A program made the position numbers and the translations under genes. A stretch of DNA of 10,897 bases from Desulfovibrio oxyclinae DSM 11498 (lineage in GTDB: Bacteria; Desulfobacterota; Desulfovibrionia; Desulfovibrionales; Desulfovibrionaceae): the NCBI RefSeq assembly GCF_000375485.1, contig NZ_AQXE01000011.1, positions 66,239 to 77,135 of the forward strand, in the 5' to 3' direction. Shown here one piece after another: positions 3,393 through 10,897 of the stretch. Position 1 is the first letter of the stretch; each line of letters starts with the position of its first letter. The notes below the pieces were generated by a model. The model was not told the DNA's origin. It did no database searches and worked only from the letters and a program-made list of their open reading frames with translations.

Positions 3393-4490
3393 TTATGAGG
3401 CTCTATGAAGAGCCTTGTCAATAGATGATTCCCAAAATGACATCACAGTCGGCAGCGAAAAACGCTCTGTCACATTTTGCGCACGAAAAGCGAAAGTCTC
3501 TCTCATCTGTGAATCACTCATTAAAGCATCCATCGCACCAGCTAAAGCGGAAACATCTTCACAAGGGACAATCAAACCATCATAGCCATGATGCACAATA
3601 TCCTTCACAGCACCACATTCTGTCGAAATCACAGCGACACCAGAAGCCATGGCCTCACATAACGCGTTAGGGAACCCTTCATAAGAAGAAGGAAGCACAA
3701 AAAGTTCTGTCTGCTGAAGACAATTGGCTACATTAACAATCTGTCCTGTAAAATGAACCCGGTCATTAAGACCGAGCGAAGAAACCAACTGCTTTAAAAA
3801 AAGATTCAACGGCCCGTCACCAACAAGAGCCAAATGCCAACTCTCATGACGGGATGCAATTTGACTGAACGCTTTGATTAACCTCGAATGCCCCTTCTCA
3901 GCCGATTGACGACCAATGGAAGTTATCAAGGGACTTGGCAAGGATACATTCTCACCGCCTGGATGCGGCGCAGAAACAGGGTTCGCTATTATATCAATTT
4001 TATTACTTAATCGTCTCGGGAAGAATTGCTTAGCATTTGAGCTCTGTACAACAATCCTATCAGCCAGAGGATAGGTCAAAGACCTTAGTTTTCCCCACAC
4101 CTTACCTATGTCATGCTTCCATGGATCACTTCTTTCAGATATCAGGACAGGGTAACCAGCCCCCAAAAGACTCAGGAGCAAACGAACATTAACAGTATCC
4201 ACAAAGCTAATCACAACGTCTGGATTTATATTTCGAATAGCACGACGTAGTACAATGCTTCTTTTTAGGTTGTTGACAACAGACTGCAATAAGTTCTGCG
4301 AAGGCCACAAGAGTGACAAATTCTGCACCGACACACTCTCATGCAAAGGATAAAATGAATCATTTATTTCACTGAAAGTAACTATACTTATGGAATGCTC
4401 ACAGGACGCAGCCCAATGATTAGCCATTGTACAAACCACACGTTCTGCGCCACCAGCATCCAATGAAGATATTACAAAAACAATATTCAC
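3393..4490 (-). CDS. Family 4 glycosyltransferase (365 aa)
   Basis: The protein is a retaining GT-B fold glycosyltransferase of family GT4, which moves a sugar from a nucleotide donor to a growing glycan at the cytoplasmic membrane face. The N-terminal acceptor domain opens with MNIVFVISSLDAGGAERVV, including the GGAERVV signature. The donor domain shows SIGRQSAEKG (191-200), LVGDGP (222-227) and the EX7E pair E271-GFPNALC-E279, then MASGVAVIST. Length is normal for GT4. The start codon is GTG (4488-4490) preceded by GGATG. It is the last gene of the operon, 119 bases after the GT2 gene, and a terminator hairpin overlaps its stop codon. Sugar specificity cannot be read from sequence. Confidence 0.93.
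   Translation of the reverse strand: MNIVFVISSLDAGGAERVVCTMANHWAASCEHSISIVTFSEINDSFYPLHESVSVQNLSLLWPSQNLLQSVVNNLKRSIVLRRAIRNINPDVVISFVDTVNVRLLLSLLGAGYPVLISERSDPWKHDIGKVWGKLRSLTYPLADRIVVQSSNAKQFFPRRLSNKIDIIANPVSAPHPGGENVSLPSPLITSIGRQSAEKGHSRLIKAFSQIASRHESWHLALVGDGPLNLFLKQLVSSLGLNDRVHFTGQIVNVANCLQQTELFVLPSSYEGFPNALCEAMASGVAVISTECGAVKDIVHHGYDGLIVPCEDVSALAGAMDALMSDSQMRETFAFRAQNVTERFSLPTVMSFWESSIDKALHRAS
3398..3415 (-). terminator. Hairpin overlapping the 3' end of the GT4 gene
   Basis: AGGCTCT (3398-3404) and AGAGCCT (3409-3415) form a perfect 7-bp stem with a 4-base loop, made from the last codons of the glycosyltransferase gene just before the stop at 3393-3395. On the minus strand a T5 run (in ATGTTTTTCG) begins 8 bases past the stem. 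This fits a modest intrinsic terminator closing the glycan operon. The distance to the T-run is longer than ideal. Confidence 0.5.
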
Positions 4491-4609: not shown

Positions 4610-5542
4610 CTAAAAATGCAGCCTTTTAATCAAAAATGCAACGCTCATTCTCACGGTACGAGCGTAATCATGCTGCAACATTTTAAGCCAATAACGAAAA
4701 GCTGAGAAACGGCGTCCATGCAGACGGGAAAGGGTCAAGGCTTCTTCAAACTGATGAAAGATGTGTTTTCTAATGATGGATGAATACTTCTTGTTAAAAT
4801 AACCATCAAGCTCAACAAGAAAGCTTGTTTTGCGTTCATTGACTGCGATCAACTCTTCAAAAGGTTTCTTGGCAATTGTCTTAGTTATTCCTGCTGGATG
4901 CTGTCGGTAAACTGCCATCACATCATCCATAAAATATATATCTCCAAAAGTAGCAAGCCAAATCAGCAAGGCATGGTCACGAGATACGGTGGTGTAAAAC
5001 CAACTGGGAAGAGTCTTTGGATTCCTGAAAAGAAGCGAAGCAGTGAAATTACAAGGAAAGCAAGCCAAAACATCTTCAAGCGCAACCCTTTTCTTGCAAA
5101 AGATATTGCCTTGAACAAAATTCTGACCTTCCATTCCATCAAAAATCACTGCTTGACTATGTATAGCCACGGAAAGGTGAAGATCAGACTCAAGAAGCTC
5201 TACTTGCTTTATAAGCTTACGAGGATCTGTCCAGTAATCGTCACCTTCACACATGGCGACATACTTCACTCCCGACGAGAAACATTTGTCATATAGACTC
5301 TCAACAATTTTACCTTTTGTGTTCTCCTCAGACATCAGCAAGTAAATACGATCAGGGTGCTGCTCCTTGTATTTCTGACATATCTCCCGAGTACCATCAG
5401 TAGAACCGTCGTCAGACAAAAAAATCTTAACAGGAAACTCCCCTCGCTGCATCAAGACTCCGTCAAGAGCATGAGAAATATAGTTGGCTTGATTATACGT
5501 TCCCATAATCACACCAACAAAAGGGGCAGTCACATCAGACAC
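4610..5542 (-). CDS. Family 2 glycosyltransferase (310 aa)
   Basis: The protein is an inverting GT-A glycosyltransferase of family GT2 that would add one sugar from an NDP donor during glycan assembly. The start VGVIMGTYNQANYISHAL is the classic nucleotide-binding strand and loop. SDDGSTDGT at 43-51 is the first acidic motif, and EGDDYW at 99-104 is the metal-binding DxD-type motif followed by the acceptor-side aromatic. A Q-x-H-P stretch (YRQHPAGIT) sits in the C-terminal part, as in many O-antigen GT2 enzymes. There is no C-terminal membrane helix, so it is likely peripheral. The start codon is GTG (5540-5542): an in-frame TAA lies two codons upstream and the next Met is inside the catalytic fold. 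GGGATGGG upstream can act as the ribosome binding site. It follows the propeller gene by 25 bases. Confidence 0.93.
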   Translation of the reverse strand: MSDVTAPFVGVIMGTYNQANYISHALDGVLMQRGEFPVKIFLSDDGSTDGTREICQKYKEQHPDRIYLLMSEENTKGKIVESLYDKCFSSGVKYVAMCEGDDYWTDPRKLIKQVELLESDLHLSVAIHSQAVIFDGMEGQNFVQGNIFCKKRVALEDVLACFPCNFTASLLFRNPKTLPSWFYTTVSRDHALLIWLATFGDIYFMDDVMAVYRQHPAGITKTIAKKPFEELIAVNERKTSFLVELDGYFNKKYSSIIRKHIFHQFEEALTLSRLHGRRFSAFRYWLKMLQHDYARTVRMSVAFLIKRLHF

Positions 5543-5567: not shown

Positions 5568-6494
5568 TTACTCCCACACAGCGCAGCAAAAGCCATTCAT
5601 CCCAAAGCCATTACCGTTATAAAAAAGGTACTTTGAGCTTTTTGTACTAACAACAGAAGGATAGGCTTGCATTTTAGAATCCCATTCTTGCGGCCCTGGC
5701 TGGATTCCACATTCAGCATCACTTCGGATCCAACTCAGTCCATCTTCAGAAGTTGCATACCCGATACGGTAACTCTCAGGACCGTCTCTAAAGTCATTGC
5801 TTCCTCGATAGCAGAACCACATTTTATACATTCCATCTTCAAAAACTACAGTCGGCTTGGCATTTGCCTCATATTCAGACATGGTCGGGATGCAAGTTAG
5901 ATCATCCTTGCACCAATTTATTGCATCTTGTGAAAATGCAGTCTTTATCTGGTACAAAGATTCTGGTTTACCATCCACAGTAATCCATTTAGTACCTGCG
6001 GCATACCACATGCGCCATCCCTCCCCAAATTTCATGACCCATGGAGATATGACAAAATAAGGATCATAAGCGCTTCTATCCAAAACAGGACCATCAAATA
6101 AGCGAGTGAAACTGTTCCCTCCATCATCACTTACAGCAAGTCCAATCGCATTGCCATAAGGCACAGTCACTCGAATATTGTAAGCAGTGTAATATAAATA
6201 AATTTTTCCGTCGCACTCAAGCGCGCAAGTACATAAGGTACCACTGTCATCACAAGCACCAAGTTTTCCGAGGCTTAAAACTGGTTCTTTATGCACATAC
6301 AGGACTTTTGCAGGGTCGTCTTTGTCTAAGTCCACGTAAGTAATCCGACTCTTCCCATTTACATCACGCGGACTATAGTAGACACGGATACAATCTTCCA
6401 TCACAAGAGGTGTCGGCAACATTGCATGGCTGTTAATCCAGTCGAGTTCATACTTACTACGATCAAAGACAAGTCCAATTTTTCTCCAGGCCAT
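5568..6494 (-). CDS. Cytoplasmic five-bladed beta-propeller, GH43/GH32-like (308 aa)
   Basis: The protein resembles the catalytic propeller of glycoside hydrolase clans with GH43/GH32/GH130-like folds. Blade-type repeats are visible: RVYYSPRD (37-44), IYLYYTAY (98-105), RMWYAAG (161-167), YKMWFCYRG (223-231) and YLFYNGNGFG (289-298). They are interleaved with sequencing-grade 'S-x-D-G-x-x-W/F' turns at VSDDGGNSF, FSQDAINW and TSEDGLSW. Length matches a single propeller with nothing attached. There is no signal peptide, so it should sit in the cytoplasm beside the biosynthetic enzymes, which is odd for a secreted hydrolase. Candidate acidic residues include D19, D144 and E209, but I cannot assign a catalytic triad. 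The ATG at 6492-6494 has a good AAGAAGG site 7 bases upstream and follows the GNAT gene by 24 bases. Alternatives are a transglycosylase, phosphorylase or non-catalytic sugar-binding protein. Confidence 0.75.
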   Translation of the reverse strand: MAWRKIGLVFDRSKYELDWINSHAMLPTPLVMEDCIRVYYSPRDVNGKSRITYVDLDKDDPAKVLYVHKEPVLSLGKLGACDDSGTLCTCALECDGKIYLYYTAYNIRVTVPYGNAIGLAVSDDGGNSFTRLFDGPVLDRSAYDPYFVISPWVMKFGEGWRMWYAAGTKWITVDGKPESLYQIKTAFSQDAINWCKDDLTCIPTMSEYEANAKPTVVFEDGMYKMWFCYRGSNDFRDGPESYRIGYATSEDGLSWIRSDAECGIQPGPQEWDSKMQAYPSVVSTKSSKYLFYNGNGFGMNGFCCAVWE

Positions 6495-6518: not shown

Positions 6519-6995
6519 TTACAAATTATACCCCAAAGACCAAAAATCTTTTCCCCACCAATGATGCGGATGAAAACCCTCGACTTGAAAACCGATTCTT
6601 TTATAAAATGCTACTGCATCTTCGCTCGGAGCCGTTAACTTTATCTTGTGAACACCGTGCTTTTTATAGAAGTCCACACACTGATCAAACAGCATAGAAC
6701 CGATACCTCTCGCTTGAAAGGATTGGTCAACTAGAAGCCAAAGGACAGTTGAGACTCCCCCCTCAGGAGGCAAGGCCAACAAGAAACCACAAACCATTTC
6801 ATCAAAAACGGCAACCCAGACAGCAGCTCTCTCTCTTTCTAAAAAGCTGGTAAAATTGTTTGTCTCAAAAAGCTGCGCATATCCGGCAATGGCCTGCTCA
6901 GGAAAATTAAAATTAGTTCGACAACTATTTTTCATCAAAGAGCAAAGACGCTCAGAATCATCAATACTAGCCAATCTAAAACAAAGACGGTTCAT
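6519..6995 (-). CDS. GNAT family N-acetyltransferase (158 aa)
   Basis: The protein is a GCN5-related acetyltransferase that would use acetyl-CoA (or another acyl-CoA). Strand 4 and motif A read VLWLLVDQSFQARGIGSMLF (84-103), with the pyrophosphate-binding Q-A-R-G-I-G-S at 94-100. Motif B is AVAFYKRIGFQVEG (127-140), and the C-terminus is rich in Trp and His (HPHHWWGKDFW). Length is standard. The ATG overlaps the stop of the methyltransferase gene by 4 bases (ATGA at 6992-6995), so translation is coupled. In this locus the likely acceptor is the amine of an amino sugar made by the upstream aminotransferase. A ribosomal or small-molecule substrate cannot be excluded. Confidence 0.9.
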   Translation of the reverse strand: MNRLCFRLASIDDSERLCSLMKNSCRTNFNFPEQAIAGYAQLFETNNFTSFLERERAAVWVAVFDEMVCGFLLALPPEGGVSTVLWLLVDQSFQARGIGSMLFDQCVDFYKKHGVHKIKLTAPSEDAVAFYKRIGFQVEGFHPHHWWGKDFWSLGYNL

Positions 6996-7639
6996 ATCGC
7001 ATCTCTATAAACATAGACAGTGTACTCATATAATCCATAATCCATTCGAACTGTGACATGCCGACTGATATTCTTAACCAAATATGAAACACATTCATCC
7101 AGAGGCCAATGAAAGAGGTCATCCCTGTACCAATCTACATGACTGCTCATCACATTGAAGGCCAGTCCTTTGCGGCAAAGACCATACGTTGAGTAAATAA
7201 TGTGCTTTGCGAAATCGGCCATACGCTGATGTGAAAGAGTAAGCTTTTCTGTAAGGACTCCATTCATTAAAACATAATCGGCAATTTGCTCTTGAATTGG
7301 ATTTTTTAGTAAATCCCTAGCTTCAAAAAACTCATTGGGATGTCTACGACTAGCAGCTTCAATCATCTTTTCGGATATATCAATACCGCGGTAGTTAAAA
7401 CGCTCCCTCTGCCCTGTGTCAGTCAAGTAGTCCACCATCAATCCGACTCCACACCCTACATCAGCCAGACACACACTGCCAGCTCGTGTACGGACAACAT
7501 CCAACATCACTGCGAACCGACGTTCTAGATCGTGTTGATTTGGCCAGTCAACCCCGCGATGATTGGGGCCAAACTCTGCCAGTCGTTTTTCATAGTGTTC
7601 TTTAACGACTTCATAATCGCCACCATTCATTTTAGACAA
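6992..7639 (-). CDS. Class I SAM-dependent methyltransferase (215 aa)
   Basis: The protein has the Rossmann-fold SAM-binding core of small-molecule methyltransferases. Motif I is LADVGCGVG (58-66), the acidic ribose-contacting motif II is YRGIDIS (83-89), and an IADYVLMNGV strand (119-128) follows. The C-terminal part contains WYRDDLFHWP (170-179). The frame is open to an ATG at 7738, but that would bury 85 bases in the upstream FemAB-like gene and add unrelated residues. I chose the TTG at 7639 because GGAG lies 7 bases before it, just after the upstream stop; the ATG at 7630 is the alternative. The start is therefore uncertain by up to three codons. Context suggests O- or N-methylation of a sugar or its acyl group. 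Confidence 0.88.
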   Translation of the reverse strand: MSKMNGGDYEVVKEHYEKRLAEFGPNHRGVDWPNQHDLERRFAVMLDVVRTRAGSVCLADVGCGVGLMVDYLTDTGQRERFNYRGIDISEKMIEAASRRHPNEFFEARDLLKNPIQEQIADYVLMNGVLTEKLTLSHQRMADFAKHIIYSTYGLCRKGLAFNVMSSHVDWYRDDLFHWPLDECVSYLVKNISRHVTVRMDYGLYEYTVYVYRDAI

Positions 7640-7653
7640 AAGCACATCTCCTG

Positions 7654-8694
7654 CTAGCGCGTAGAGCTTTTCCTGTTTTTCCAATATGGAGGAAAGTATC
7701 CGTCTTGCGAGTTGGAATCCACACCTGCAGAAAGGCAAAGTTGCTTGTATTCAGTTGACAAAACAACTTGCTTCAATGCTTTCAAATTACACGGTACGGC
7801 ATTAAATCGCTGTTTAAATCGATCGAGGCCATCACCGGGGGCAACTCCGCCTCCCAAATTGAGCAAACCGGCGCCTCTTTTTTTCTGCATTTCTAGTGCG
7901 TTCCAGATTATATTTCTGGAATATTTTCTGCCAGCTGAGGTTGATGCGCTAAGGAAGTATTCCATCACATTGCAGTCTCCCCTCCCATTCCCTTCGGGTA
8001 AAATGAAAAGTGAAACCGCCTCGACTTTGCCACCTACAATAACACCCACCGGCACCATTTCTGGAATCTCAAGAAAAGCCTTCAACGTTTCGCGGCTAAA
8101 ATCGTAGCAATCAGAAGCACCAACACGTTGCATAGTCTGTGGATACAATTCAAGAAAAGCTTCGTGCAAAACAGGCGTACTATGCGCGATTGTAACTGTA
8201 TGATCGCGATCAACTTTTCTAATCTCATACCGATGAGTCTTATTAAGCGAAGAAAACATATCCTTCAGAGGCGGAGTCAGGTCCAAAAGGTAGACCACTT
8301 GGGGCTGCTCCTCAAATTCATGAACCATGTCCGTAGGCAACTCAATCGCTGGATTTTGCACGATGTATGCAGTTGCAAATCCTTCTCGACGGCAAAAATC
8401 TGTCCATTCAGCAAAAAATGAGTGGCCTTTGTTTGAGGGCCATGTGGTTACGAAGCCACCAGAACCATAGGGAGAAAATAATTCCGGAGGAGCTGTGGCT
8501 GACAGTCTTCGAACTCCTAGAGGACATACAGCCTTGCCTCCATCACCATCACACCGATACAAAAACAACTCATATTCCACTGACAAAGACAAAGCTTTGC
8601 AGTAAGCATGAGAATGAGCCAGCGGAGTAGCCATCCCATCTAATGCTCTGCACCAGCGCTCTTCATCCGTTAATGGAATCAATTCGTGTTTCAT
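7654..8694 (-). CDS. FemAB/GNAT-like acyl or aminoacyl transferase (346 aa)
   Basis: The protein belongs to the FemAB-like double-GNAT group (Pfam GNAT_6 type) found in capsule and exopolysaccharide loci. Typical signs are FSPYGSGGF (73-81), the LNKTHRYEIRK basic motif (150-160), SLFILPEG (228-235), and the conserved LNLGGGVAPGDGLDRFKQRF block (278-297) that marks the end of the second GNAT domain. Classical FemABX enzymes transfer amino acids from charged tRNA to peptidoglycan. Relatives in glycan loci are thought to acylate amino groups, so an aminoacyl or acyl transfer to the sugar is inferred. The ATG at 8692-8694 is preceded directly by a TTG (8697) that could also start. No strong ribosome binding site is seen. 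It starts 16 bases after the radical SAM gene. Confidence 0.85.
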   Translation of the reverse strand: MKHELIPLTDEERWCRALDGMATPLAHSHAYCKALSLSVEYELFLYRCDGDGGKAVCPLGVRRLSATAPPELFSPYGSGGFVTTWPSNKGHSFFAEWTDFCRREGFATAYIVQNPAIELPTDMVHEFEEQPQVVYLLDLTPPLKDMFSSLNKTHRYEIRKVDRDHTVTIAHSTPVLHEAFLELYPQTMQRVGASDCYDFSRETLKAFLEIPEMVPVGVIVGGKVEAVSLFILPEGNGRGDCNVMEYFLSASTSAGRKYSRNIIWNALEMQKKRGAGLLNLGGGVAPGDGLDRFKQRFNAVPCNLKALKQVVLSTEYKQLCLSAGVDSNSQDGYFPPYWKNRKSSTR

Positions 8695-8710
8695 CAATAA
8701 GGCCTAAGGC

Positions 8711-9955
8711 TTAAGACAGGATGTAACACCCGTCTTCAGACAATACAGCAGCCCTTTTTTCTATAGTCGCTGAGTCAACCTTTTGAGGAAGAGATGATGA
8801 CACAGCCTTGGGCCTATCCTCATATCGGTTAACAGTGACCTCAGCAAATCCCAAAGCTTTCGCAGCCTTTCTGGACAATTGGAAATCTTCCTCAGTTTCA
8901 CCAGGAAATCCAATAAGCAGACTGGTTCTTAACGCAATCTCAGGCGCTCTCTCATTGATCTCTTTAAGAGTATCCAAGGCATCTTGTGCCTTGTATTCCC
9001 GCTTCATCGACTCAAGTACTGAATTAGAGCCTGACTGAAGTGGGACAAACAGCTCCTTAATGTTTTCCTGGTGTCTAACAATTACAGGCAGCAGTGTATC
9101 TCGATCCTCAATTAACCACTGTGGATTACAGTCGATTATTATAAGATTAAAATCTTCAGCATAACTGCAAAGAGACTTAATCAGTTCGGCCAAAGAACTG
9201 TTTATGTCTTTCCCGTAGCATCCGGTGTCTTCTGCGATTAACTGAAAAGTCTTATAACCTTTGTCTATTCCCTTTTTAAAATCATGGAAAACGTCCTCAA
9301 GCGGTCGGCTACGCAGGGTGCCTGTAGCATACTTCGTTGCACAAAAAGCACATTGACTAAGACATCCATCCGCAATTTTAATATTATAGTATGGAATAAA
9401 AGTTTGCGGCTTGTTGCCTTTGGCAAGACTTTTAATCTTTTCGTATAAACTTTTCCCTCGAACTGAGTATTCGAGAAACTTACCGTTCATAAAGAATTTG
9501 TAGAATATTCTTTTGTACAGCTTTGACTTGCGACAAAAACTACGGGCTACAAGATAATTCACTATATCCGGATTATCGGCAATACTGTCCGGATACTCCA
9601 CTTCTTCAAAAGGAGTGATGGCATTAATCAACTCATCAAATTTTTCCAGTTGACCCGTGGGGACAAAAACGCAATCACGGATGTCACTCATCGGGCCAGC
9701 GTTAATCAGAGGAAGGCAGCCAGTTACAACGATAAGAGAGTTCTTGTTTCCACGCCTTGCAACCGCTTCATGAATAGCTCTAAGCGAATTCTCCTCATTA
9801 AGCTCAACGACACCACAGGTTGCAACAATTATCATGTCAGCAGTCTCAGGTTTCCTGGACATATCCCAACCATTGCGCTCCAGATAACTCTGAAGATGGA
9901 TAACATCCAGGCCCCTTCGAATACACCCCGCGCTAAACACATAGAATTTTTTCAT
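8711..9955 (-). CDS. Methylthiotransferase-like radical SAM protein lacking TRAM (414 aa)
   Basis: The protein has the MiaB/RimO/MtaB architecture minus its last domain. An N-terminal UPF0004-type domain has the three cluster ligands C11 (SAGC), C47 (ATCGVVE) and C80 (VTGC). The radical SAM CxxxCxxC is C198-LSQ-C202-AF-C205. Further family motifs are AEDTGCYGKD (241-250), FVPLQSGSNSVLESMKREY (303-321), LIGFPGETEEDF (347-358) and NRYEDRPKAVSSSLP (376-390). It therefore should carry two [4Fe-4S] clusters and SAM. The spacer before CxxxCxxC is about 40 residues longer than in MiaB and basic (KSKLYKRIFYKFF), and the protein stops right after the radical SAM domain with no RNA-binding TRAM domain. 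A tRNA substrate is thus doubtful. The ATG lies 18 bases after wbqC-like, with no clear ribosome binding site. Confidence 0.88.
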   Translation of the reverse strand: MKKFYVFSAGCIRRGLDVIHLQSYLERNGWDMSRKPETADMIIVATCGVVELNEENSLRAIHEAVARRGNKNSLIVVTGCLPLINAGPMSDIRDCVFVPTGQLEKFDELINAITPFEEVEYPDSIADNPDIVNYLVARSFCRKSKLYKRIFYKFFMNGKFLEYSVRGKSLYEKIKSLAKGNKPQTFIPYYNIKIADGCLSQCAFCATKYATGTLRSRPLEDVFHDFKKGIDKGYKTFQLIAEDTGCYGKDINSSLAELIKSLCSYAEDFNLIIIDCNPQWLIEDRDTLLPVIVRHQENIKELFVPLQSGSNSVLESMKREYKAQDALDTLKEINERAPEIALRTSLLIGFPGETEEDFQLSRKAAKALGFAEVTVNRYEDRPKAVSSSLPQKVDSATIEKRAAVLSEDGCYILS

Positions 9956-9973: not shown

Positions 9974-10678
9974 CTAGCATTGAACGTTTTCAGTTTCGTA
10001 AACTAACAACTCTTGGAAGCTAGATGTACACATCATAGCATCAAGAACCGACAACCCTGAAACAAAATCCCCTGTCCCCTGTGGATATGACCTAAGCTTG
10101 GGCTGTAAAAACTCAAGTGATATACCCTTCCGCCGAAAGGTTGCGCAGTCATACAGATCTCTACCGCCGGGAAGGTTGACATACGTTTCAGCACAATTTT
10201 GGATGCAAATATCCAAAACCCTGTCAGACCCGGACAGCCCTTTCCGAGGGTATACAGAAGAAGTTTCAACTATTTCCGTACTAATCCCAAGATAAGAACA
10301 AACTCTCTTCAGCGAATGCACAAGAAAAGTGGATAAACCACTTATTTTACAGGCAAGCATGTCTTCAATCAAAGGCATCACGTTATTATACATAGGTGCT
10401 TTTTTGTAAGCATGCTTTATTGTTTTAAGAAACCTTCTAGCCCAATCCTCGTAATCCTGCCCGAGTTCCAACTCATTGATCATTTTATTCTGGCTTGCCT
10501 TTTTAACAGGCAAAGAAAAAGTATTAGGTCGCCCATCTACAAGAATACGGTTTCGATTCACCCATCCCCGCTTAATATAATTAACATCATCAAGCACAAC
10601 GAATCGATCTACGGATGCAAGCAGCTGAAAATAACCAAGATAGGGCAAAAAATATGGCTGCATCACGGCTAATCGCAT
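9974..10678 (-). CDS. WbqC family protein (234 aa)
   Basis: The protein is a full-length member of the WbqC family, named after an O-antigen gene and repeatedly found with sugar aminotransferases. The signature is intact: MRLAVMQPYFLPYLGYFQLL at the N-terminus with the QPYxxPYLGYF core, and LDDVNYIKRGWVNRNRIL (29-46) with conserved acidic, Tyr and Arg residues. VNLPGGRDLYD lies in the C-terminal part. It has no signal peptide or membrane segment. The biochemical role is not well settled; the family is suspected to act in N-acylation or related decoration of amino sugars. The ATG overlaps the aminotransferase stop by one base (TAATG at 10676-10680), and a strong GGAGG sits inside the upstream gene's end, so the two are translationally coupled. 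That supports a joint step. Confidence 0.9.
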   Translation of the reverse strand: MRLAVMQPYFLPYLGYFQLLASVDRFVVLDDVNYIKRGWVNRNRILVDGRPNTFSLPVKKASQNKMINELELGQDYEDWARRFLKTIKHAYKKAPMYNNVMPLIEDMLACKISGLSTFLVHSLKRVCSYLGISTEIVETSSVYPRKGLSGSDRVLDICIQNCAETYVNLPGGRDLYDCATFRRKGISLEFLQPKLRSYPQGTGDFVSGLSVLDAMMCTSSFQELLVYETENVQC

Positions 10679-10897
10679 TACTGTCCTCCTCTGCAGGAAA
10701 GAACCAGATCAATAATTTTTTCTTGGTCAAACGGAGCAAGGTCTGGATAAATCGGAAGGCAAATCACTGCTTCACTGATTTCTGAAGCGACCGAAAGAGA
10801 GTGTTGACCAGCGCTTTTGAGGTCTCTGTATGAAGGGAAATCACTAATTAAAGGATAGTAGTATCGCCTCGGATGAATATCATGTTCCTTAAGCTTT
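10678..10897 (-). CDS. DegT/DnrJ/EryC1/StrS aminotransferase, C-terminal 72 residues (partial)
   Basis: Only the end of the gene is inside the window; it continues past the right edge. The visible 72 residues carry the C-terminal signature of PLP-dependent sugar aminotransferases: HPRRYYYPLISDFPSY, which is the substrate-side R-x-Y-Y-x-P loop, and EISEAVICLPIYPDLAPFD, followed by a closing helix (EKIIDLVLSC). Such enzymes convert a keto group of an NDP-sugar to an amine in the cytoplasm. The catalytic lysine would lie outside the window. The YYYP form is typical of the 3- or 4-amination group, but position specificity cannot be told from this piece. Its stop overlaps the WbqC-like start. Confidence 0.88.
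   Translation of the reverse strand, partial: KLKEHDIHPRRYYYPLISDFPSYRDLKSAGQHSLSVASEISEAVICLPIYPDLAPFDQEKIIDLVLSCRGGQ

Follow-up and report, generated by a model that had tools for sequence, protein, structure and literature searches.

Methylthiotransferases (MTTases) are radical S-adenosylmethionine (SAM) enzymes. In the available text of PMC5352715 they are defined by a UPF0004 domain with a CX35-36CX32-33C motif, a radical SAM domain with CX3CX2C and a C-terminal TRAM domain of about 60 residues; TRAM is attributed there to all MTTases, and the substrates given are tRNA and ribosomal protein S12. For MiaB and RimO the same text describes a sulfur on the auxiliary cluster that is methylated and then attacked by a carbon radical of the substrate. 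MTTases have been grouped into four major clades (PMC10702137, available text) or five families (PMC5352715). Our search of open-access PMC found no sequence or description of the fifth family. We take its name to be MTL1. Methylthio groups on surface sugars are known as such, namely 5-deoxy-5-methylthio-xylofuranose on mycobacterial lipoarabinomannan (PMC9912281, available text). The organisms and the glycan are, however, different from those considered here. This sugar derives from methylthioadenosine and is not known to be made by a radical SAM MTTase. Here we describe a stretch of 10,897 nucleotides from Desulfovibrio oxyclinae DSM 11498 (contig NZ_AQXE01000011.1, positions 66,239 to 77,135), called the window throughout, which encodes an MTTase-type protein without TRAM among glycan genes. 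We consider it reasonably probable that this is a radical SAM enzyme of the MTTase type that lacks TRAM and specifically serves a glycan pathway, adding sulfur or a methylthio group (SCH3) to an acylated 4-amino-sugar unit.

The MTTase core and its C-terminal end

The protein carries a UPF0004 domain (PF00919, residues 3-82, 52.1 bits, cut-off 27) and a radical SAM domain (PF04055, residues 193-359, 56.5 bits, cut-off 29.5), and the Pfam scan finds no TRAM domain (PF01938) in its 414 residues. Cysteines C11, C47 and C80 are spaced CX35CX32C and C198, C202 and C205 follow CX3CX2C, which matches the MTTase pattern in the available text of PMC5352715; the CX4CX5C auxiliary motif of lipoyl synthase LipA is lacking. 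A first-pass annotation, made from the sequence alone, had listed these six cysteines, the motifs QSGS, DTGCYGKD and RPKAVSSSLP, a basic insert near residues 135-180 and a chain that ends after the radical SAM domain. All of this is borne out: the cysteines are conserved (Table 1), the motifs start at residues 307, 243 and 381, and the insert and the early end are described below.

Since TRAM labels can be missed, we also compared the lengths beyond the conserved R401. They amount to 13 residues in the window protein and to 8-36 in 74 TRAM-less tree rows; 44 TRAM-type rows have 73-92, and the two ranges do not overlap. Structural alignment of the protein's model pairs its residues 1-411 with MtaB 1-364 (chain of 451) and with MiaB 17-386, and residues 3-410 with RimO 2-359 (chain of 424); the window chain stops where TRAM starts in MtaB, MiaB and RimO.

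Of 8000 candidates scored in a protein search, 5540 matched at E <= 0.001, and the best 120 were examined. The best 77 of the 5540 lack a TRAM label, and TRAM-labelled proteins occur from 178 bits down. A profile search reached 176 proteins at E <= 1e-60, and none of the best 120 among them carries PF01938 or PF18693. A fresh Pfam scan of nine rows of the TRAM-less clade again found no TRAM, while the MiaB of the same genome, used as control, gave PF01938 at 28.3 bits. The first-pass annotation had suggested a search for TRAM-less MTTases and their placement in the MTTase tree, and a distinct clade does emerge. In a tree of 118 rows (the best 120 without eight short or odd sequences, plus the three other MTTases of D. 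oxyclinae and three loci; quick method, midpoint root), 74 rows form a TRAM-less clade apart from the MiaB, RimO, MtaB and e-MtaB types, with a Shimodaira-Hasegawa-like approximate likelihood ratio test (SH-aLRT) support of 99. Within it, the window protein belongs to a subclade of 49 rows (SH-aLRT 99; 52 members with the short P0037, P0048 and P0064); the precise placement of nine long-branched tree rows is unsure. The counter-case raised by the first-pass annotation, close relatives with TRAM and tRNA activity, did not turn up: TRAM is absent from all 74 clade rows. The clade could be or include the fifth MTTase family. One sister-clade protein, P0055 (724 residues), carries an additional N-terminal domain fused to its TRAM-less MTTase.

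Besides the missing TRAM, the window enzyme differs from MtaB, MiaB, RimO and e-MtaB in a basic helical insert, in residues such as R14, D275 and W280, in a cysteine tail and in equivalog scores of 142-208 bits against cut-offs of 315-357 (TIGR01574 142/355, TIGR01125 192.5/357, TIGR01579 186/357, TIGR01578 208/315), none of which is reached. Conservation was read from aligned rows of three sets (subclade, n = 49; sister clade, n = 15; TRAM type, n = 44), after ten deeper rows had been dropped. The three sets share 24 positions, including the six cysteines and GFPGE. Fixed differences of the window type include R14 (N in 44/44 TRAM-type rows), D275, W280, E242, K392, R142 and F160, some of which may face the substrate. 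Owing to the insert, C80 and C198 are separated by 107-119 residues in the 64 close rows; in TRAM-type rows (n = 44) the spacing is 43-78. The net charge of the insert is +11 (mean +9.5 over 47 subclade rows), and the structure model places helices at residues 129-142, 145-154 and 158-179 (pLDDT about 80-93 by block). C141 within the insert is found in 47/49 subclade rows and in no sister row. The C-terminal ending of the subclade (Table 1) occurs in none of 122 other proteins compared. A cysteine lies within the last 14 residues of 34/71 sister proteins and is the very last residue in 28 of those (e.g. P0059, P0125, P0134). The conserved C410 tail and C141 go beyond the features listed at first.

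The glycan cassette and its distribution

The gene is the seventh of eight closely packed minus-strand genes, separated by 18 bases from the WbqC gene and by 13 from the FemAB-like gene; from there on the genes overlap by 85 bases (taking the listed TTG start) and by 4 bases and are then spaced by gaps of 24, 25 and 119 bases. Rfam has no match in the window, and a promoter scan does no better than chance (25 seen, 22.4 expected). The window has 18 terminator-like sites where 12.1 are expected; they were not used as evidence.

Table 1. Features of the window (positions in the window; cassette counts refer to the close-type loci)
Feature	Position	Strand	Remarks
TRAM-less MTTase-type radical SAM enzyme	8711..9955	-	414 aa; ATG at 9955, stop at 8711
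Auxiliary-cluster cysteines C11, C47, C80, UPF0004 domain	9716..9925	-	C in 59/59 aligned relatives at each position
Radical SAM CX3CX2C: C198, C202, C205	9341..9364	-	C in 59/59 aligned relatives at each position
Basic helical insert, residues 128-185	9401..9574	-	absent from MiaB/RimO/MtaB-type rows; contains C141, R142, F160
C-terminal tail C410-Y-I-L-S	8714..8728	-	occupies place where TRAM would follow; C-x-[ILVM]-L-S in 52/52 subclade proteins
Start of DegT sugar aminotransferase gene	10678..10897, continues outside (L031:10916-12031)	-	PF01041 304.8 bits; 6/6 cassettes
WbqC-family protein	9974..10678	-	PF08889 237.5 bits; 4/6 MTTase cassettes
FemAB-like N-acyl/aminoacyl transferase	7654..8697	-	PF02388 25.8 bits, cut-off 24; adjoins MTTase in 6/6
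Class I SAM methyltransferase	6992..7738	-	PF13649 35.8 bits; 6/6 cassettes
GNAT acetyltransferase	6519..6995	-	PF00583 53.5 bits; 5/5 cassettes with continuing contig
GH130-like propeller protein	5568..6494	-	by relative in L006; 5/5 cassettes with continuing contig
Family 2 glycosyltransferase	4610..5542	-	PF00535 55.7 bits
Family 4 glycosyltransferase, last gene of the island	3393..4490	-	PF00534 136.4 bits

A scan of genome contigs gave six loci, five from metagenome-assembled genomes (MAGs) and one from the cultured Desulfothermus okinawensis. By identity or gene order, L005, L006, L007, L008 and L010 join the window locus as the close type (n = 6), and L009 (38% identity) is of the sister type. 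FemAB-like, methyltransferase and DegT genes accompany the MTTase at all six close loci, GNAT and GH130-like genes at five of five (the contig of L007 ends within the methyltransferase gene) and WbqC at four. The cassette families were assigned by profiles built from the same loci, so that training members match by construction; a profile-free all-against-all comparison shows the same gene order. The GH130-like assignment goes back to the L006 relative (PF04041 27.5 bits, cut-off 26; match to PDB 9fj8 at 3.6e-5). The setting proposed at first, a TRAM-less MTTase within a glycan operon, is upheld by the operon genes and the conserved cassette, and the expected clustering with DegT and WbqC holds in part: it is seen in the subclade, and not at the three deeper TRAM-less loci taken up below. 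The Desulfothermus okinawensis cassette genes (L010) are frameshifted; the protein database contains an intact protein of this species, P0051. At L005, a single protein of 1190 residues that combines a glycosyltransferase 2, a radical SAM and a TPR part (L005:11888-15460) adjoins cassette and flagellin.

Flagellin lies on the cassette contig in 4/6 close loci, 3.2 kb (L005), 11.5 kb (L007), 17.8 kb (L006) and 22 kb (L010, where the identity of the contig is exact) away. Pfam confirms both flagellin and FliD at L005 as well as on the contigs of L006 and L007, and NeuB between flagellin and cassette in L006. This neighbourhood, like the low-G+C acquired island, had not been noted at first. The G+C content of the island is about 42% (0.40-0.46); the flanks have 0.56-0.57 and the other MTTase loci 0.59-0.61, and the island was therefore acquired. 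Only one of 36 same-genus genomes, that of D. oxyclinae itself, has the gene; in the other matches there, the radical SAM part is 26-33% identical. In the phylum it occurs in 4/395 genomes at E <= 1e-75, the close type being confined to the window genome and G266, the genome of L005. It is found in 1/295 genomes of the Nitrospirota-side phylum of G455 and in 1/274 of the class of G458, in each case the named genome itself. Among 24 loci from a scan of viral contigs, the best segment reaches 29% identity.

Related cassettes exist without the MTTase. The GH130-like protein is present at E <= 1e-30 in 9/395 phylum genomes, two of which also have the MTTase. At L049-L055 it is 36-45% identical to that of L006, with DegT, WbqC or methyltransferase genes in part of the loci and a hexapeptide-acyltransferase-type gene beside it in 7/7 (assigned by eye, repeats checked in one). 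This gene takes the place of MTTase and GNAT (MTTase 0/7; GNAT of the cassette type 0/7; FemAB-like 1/7; one of the seven loci sits on a contig of only 3.9 kb). MTTase plus GNAT, together with FemAB, thus occupy the position otherwise taken by an acyltransferase, which points to the acyl part of an amino-sugar. At L049 flagellin adjoins the MTTase-free cassette (Pfam). L049-L055 represent a recurrent, uncharacterised sugar-modifying module in their own right, with a widespread GH130-like protein and hexapeptide acyltransferase, often with WbqC, DegT and methyltransferase.

Beyond the window, DegT is followed on its upstream side by a gene (L031:12039-13199, minus strand) and an ABC transporter. 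We call the former sulfotransferase-like from its P-loop-like start, though no Pfam family supports the name. Residues 1-200 of P0055 are homologous to its product (26% over 200 residues, E 5e-13), and neither protein matched a Pfam family in this part. The gene was not seen at the other five close loci, and a PDB sequence search of its product and of the FemAB-like protein found no match. The DegT gene contains one undetermined base outside the window (L031:11136).

Predicted function and rival readings

The case for a glycan role is strong, and C-S chemistry is likely. The sequence retains the parts needed for a MiaB- or RimO-type mechanism. The auxiliary cluster would bear a sulfur and methylate it, the SAM cluster would generate a 5'-deoxyadenosyl radical that takes a hydrogen from a substrate carbon, and the resulting carbon radical would take S or SCH3 off the auxiliary cluster. 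We infer the substrate, the order of steps and the roles of insert and tail from the gene context. The likeliest substrate would be a nucleotide- or lipid-linked 4-amino-4,6-dideoxyhexose with its amine set by DegT. The nearest PDB entry to the L006 DegT is 2po3, presumably DesI, which makes dTDP-4-amino-4,6-dideoxyglucose a likely starting sugar. Alternatively, the acyl or aminoacyl group put on the amino-sugar by the FemAB-like and GNAT enzymes may be modified. Neighbouring glycosyltransferases would transfer the product to flagellin or another surface glycan. The basic insert may hold a phosphate or a membrane-bound carrier, and the cysteine tail may serve in sulfur handling or as a cluster ligand. 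Tentatively, and at odds somewhat below even since it adds steps to the main reading, we propose a further MTTase family whose products, sugars or aminoacyl-sugars bearing a methylthio or thio group, go into bacterial flagella and other surface glycans: the FemAB-like protein would couple an amino acid to the dideoxyhexose 4-amine, the MTTase would methylthiolate it as RimO does aspartate, GNAT and methyltransferase would finish the cap, the insert would replace TRAM, and the tail and C141 would act in sulfur supply or cluster ligation.

Several points weigh against these proposals. The window protein scores 227.4 bits with TIGR00089, below the cut-off of 251, as does the L009 relative (240.4); L006 (254.5), L037 (289) and L038 (252.9) lie above it. 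With changed catalytic side positions (N14 to R), the predicted C-S chemistry could have shifted. The cassette genes are absent from the deeper TRAM-less loci L009, L037 and L038 (0/3), and TRAM loss does therefore not itself mean a glycan role. Finally, the three flagellins of D. oxyclinae lie on contigs C15, C7 and C3, with the cassette on C11, and no flagellin was seen in the L008 genome. Flagellin thus cannot be the sole target, and we conclude that a surface glycan is targeted, often though not always the flagellar one. The deeper MTTases themselves (L009:4823-6106, L037:7602-8819, L038:9216-10457) lie outside glycan clusters. One sits between a sigma-54 regulator region and CP_ATPgrasp, Alpha-E and Peptidase_Mx genes; the other two adjoin different radical SAM genes, one of them B12-binding.

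The strongest alternative, unlikely but a serious contender, is a glycan-pathway radical SAM enzyme on an MTTase scaffold that forms no C-S bonds and performs another radical step, such as dehydration, epimerisation, methylation or oxidation, on the sugar or acyl group. The altered position 14 would suit it; the retained cluster cysteines and motifs favour C-S chemistry. A direct, RimO-like modification of flagellin or another protein side chain, with the glycan genes as mere neighbours, appears improbable. RimO provides the precedent of a protein-acting MTTase and four of six cassettes share a contig with flagellin, but the D. oxyclinae cassette is not near one, the L008 genome shows none, the gene travels with acyltransferase, methyltransferase and aminotransferase genes, and the TRAM by which RimO holds S12 (PMC5352715, available text) is missing.

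A diverged tRNA MTTase that landed in the island by chance is more improbable still, despite its MTTase core and the automatic database names of its relatives. The first-pass annotation had reckoned with a genome lacking any other MiaB, in which this gene would serve tRNA. D. oxyclinae has four PF00919 genes, and the other three are a MiaB (475.6 bits, cut-off 355.3), an MtaB (370.2, 357.05) and a RimO (432.7, 356.95), all above curated cut-offs, so that the known tRNA and S12 reactions do not require the window enzyme. Among the relatives, G454, G455 and G456 encode three further MTTases each, G458 two and G457 one, so that the set appears incomplete in some MAGs; in the frameshifted assembly of G459, five matches are scattered. 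With TRAM lost from 74/74 clade rows, the same cassette at 6/6 loci and the gene in one of 36 same-genus genomes, we reject a tRNA role as unlikely. A degenerate or truncated MTTase, suggested by the missing C-terminal domain, is scarcely credible and is ruled out for the subclade as a whole by the open frame, the conserved cysteines and the ending kept in 52/52 proteins.

Consequences for the MTTase family

We found no paper in open-access PMC on MTTases, TRAM-less or not, in glycan clusters. The earlier statement that sulfur-modified surface sugars made in this way are not described fits this literature, methylthio surface sugars as such being known. Many relatives are automatically named MiaB or MtaB in databases, and such names should be read with caution. 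If the proposed function is true, a compact MTTase for small substrates would become available to enzymologists, and an overlooked sulfur modification on flagella is predicted, with a mass shift of +46 Da for SCH3 replacing H. A TRAM-less clade in a repeated glycan cassette would then extend the conversion of C-H to C-S bonds to surface carbohydrates.
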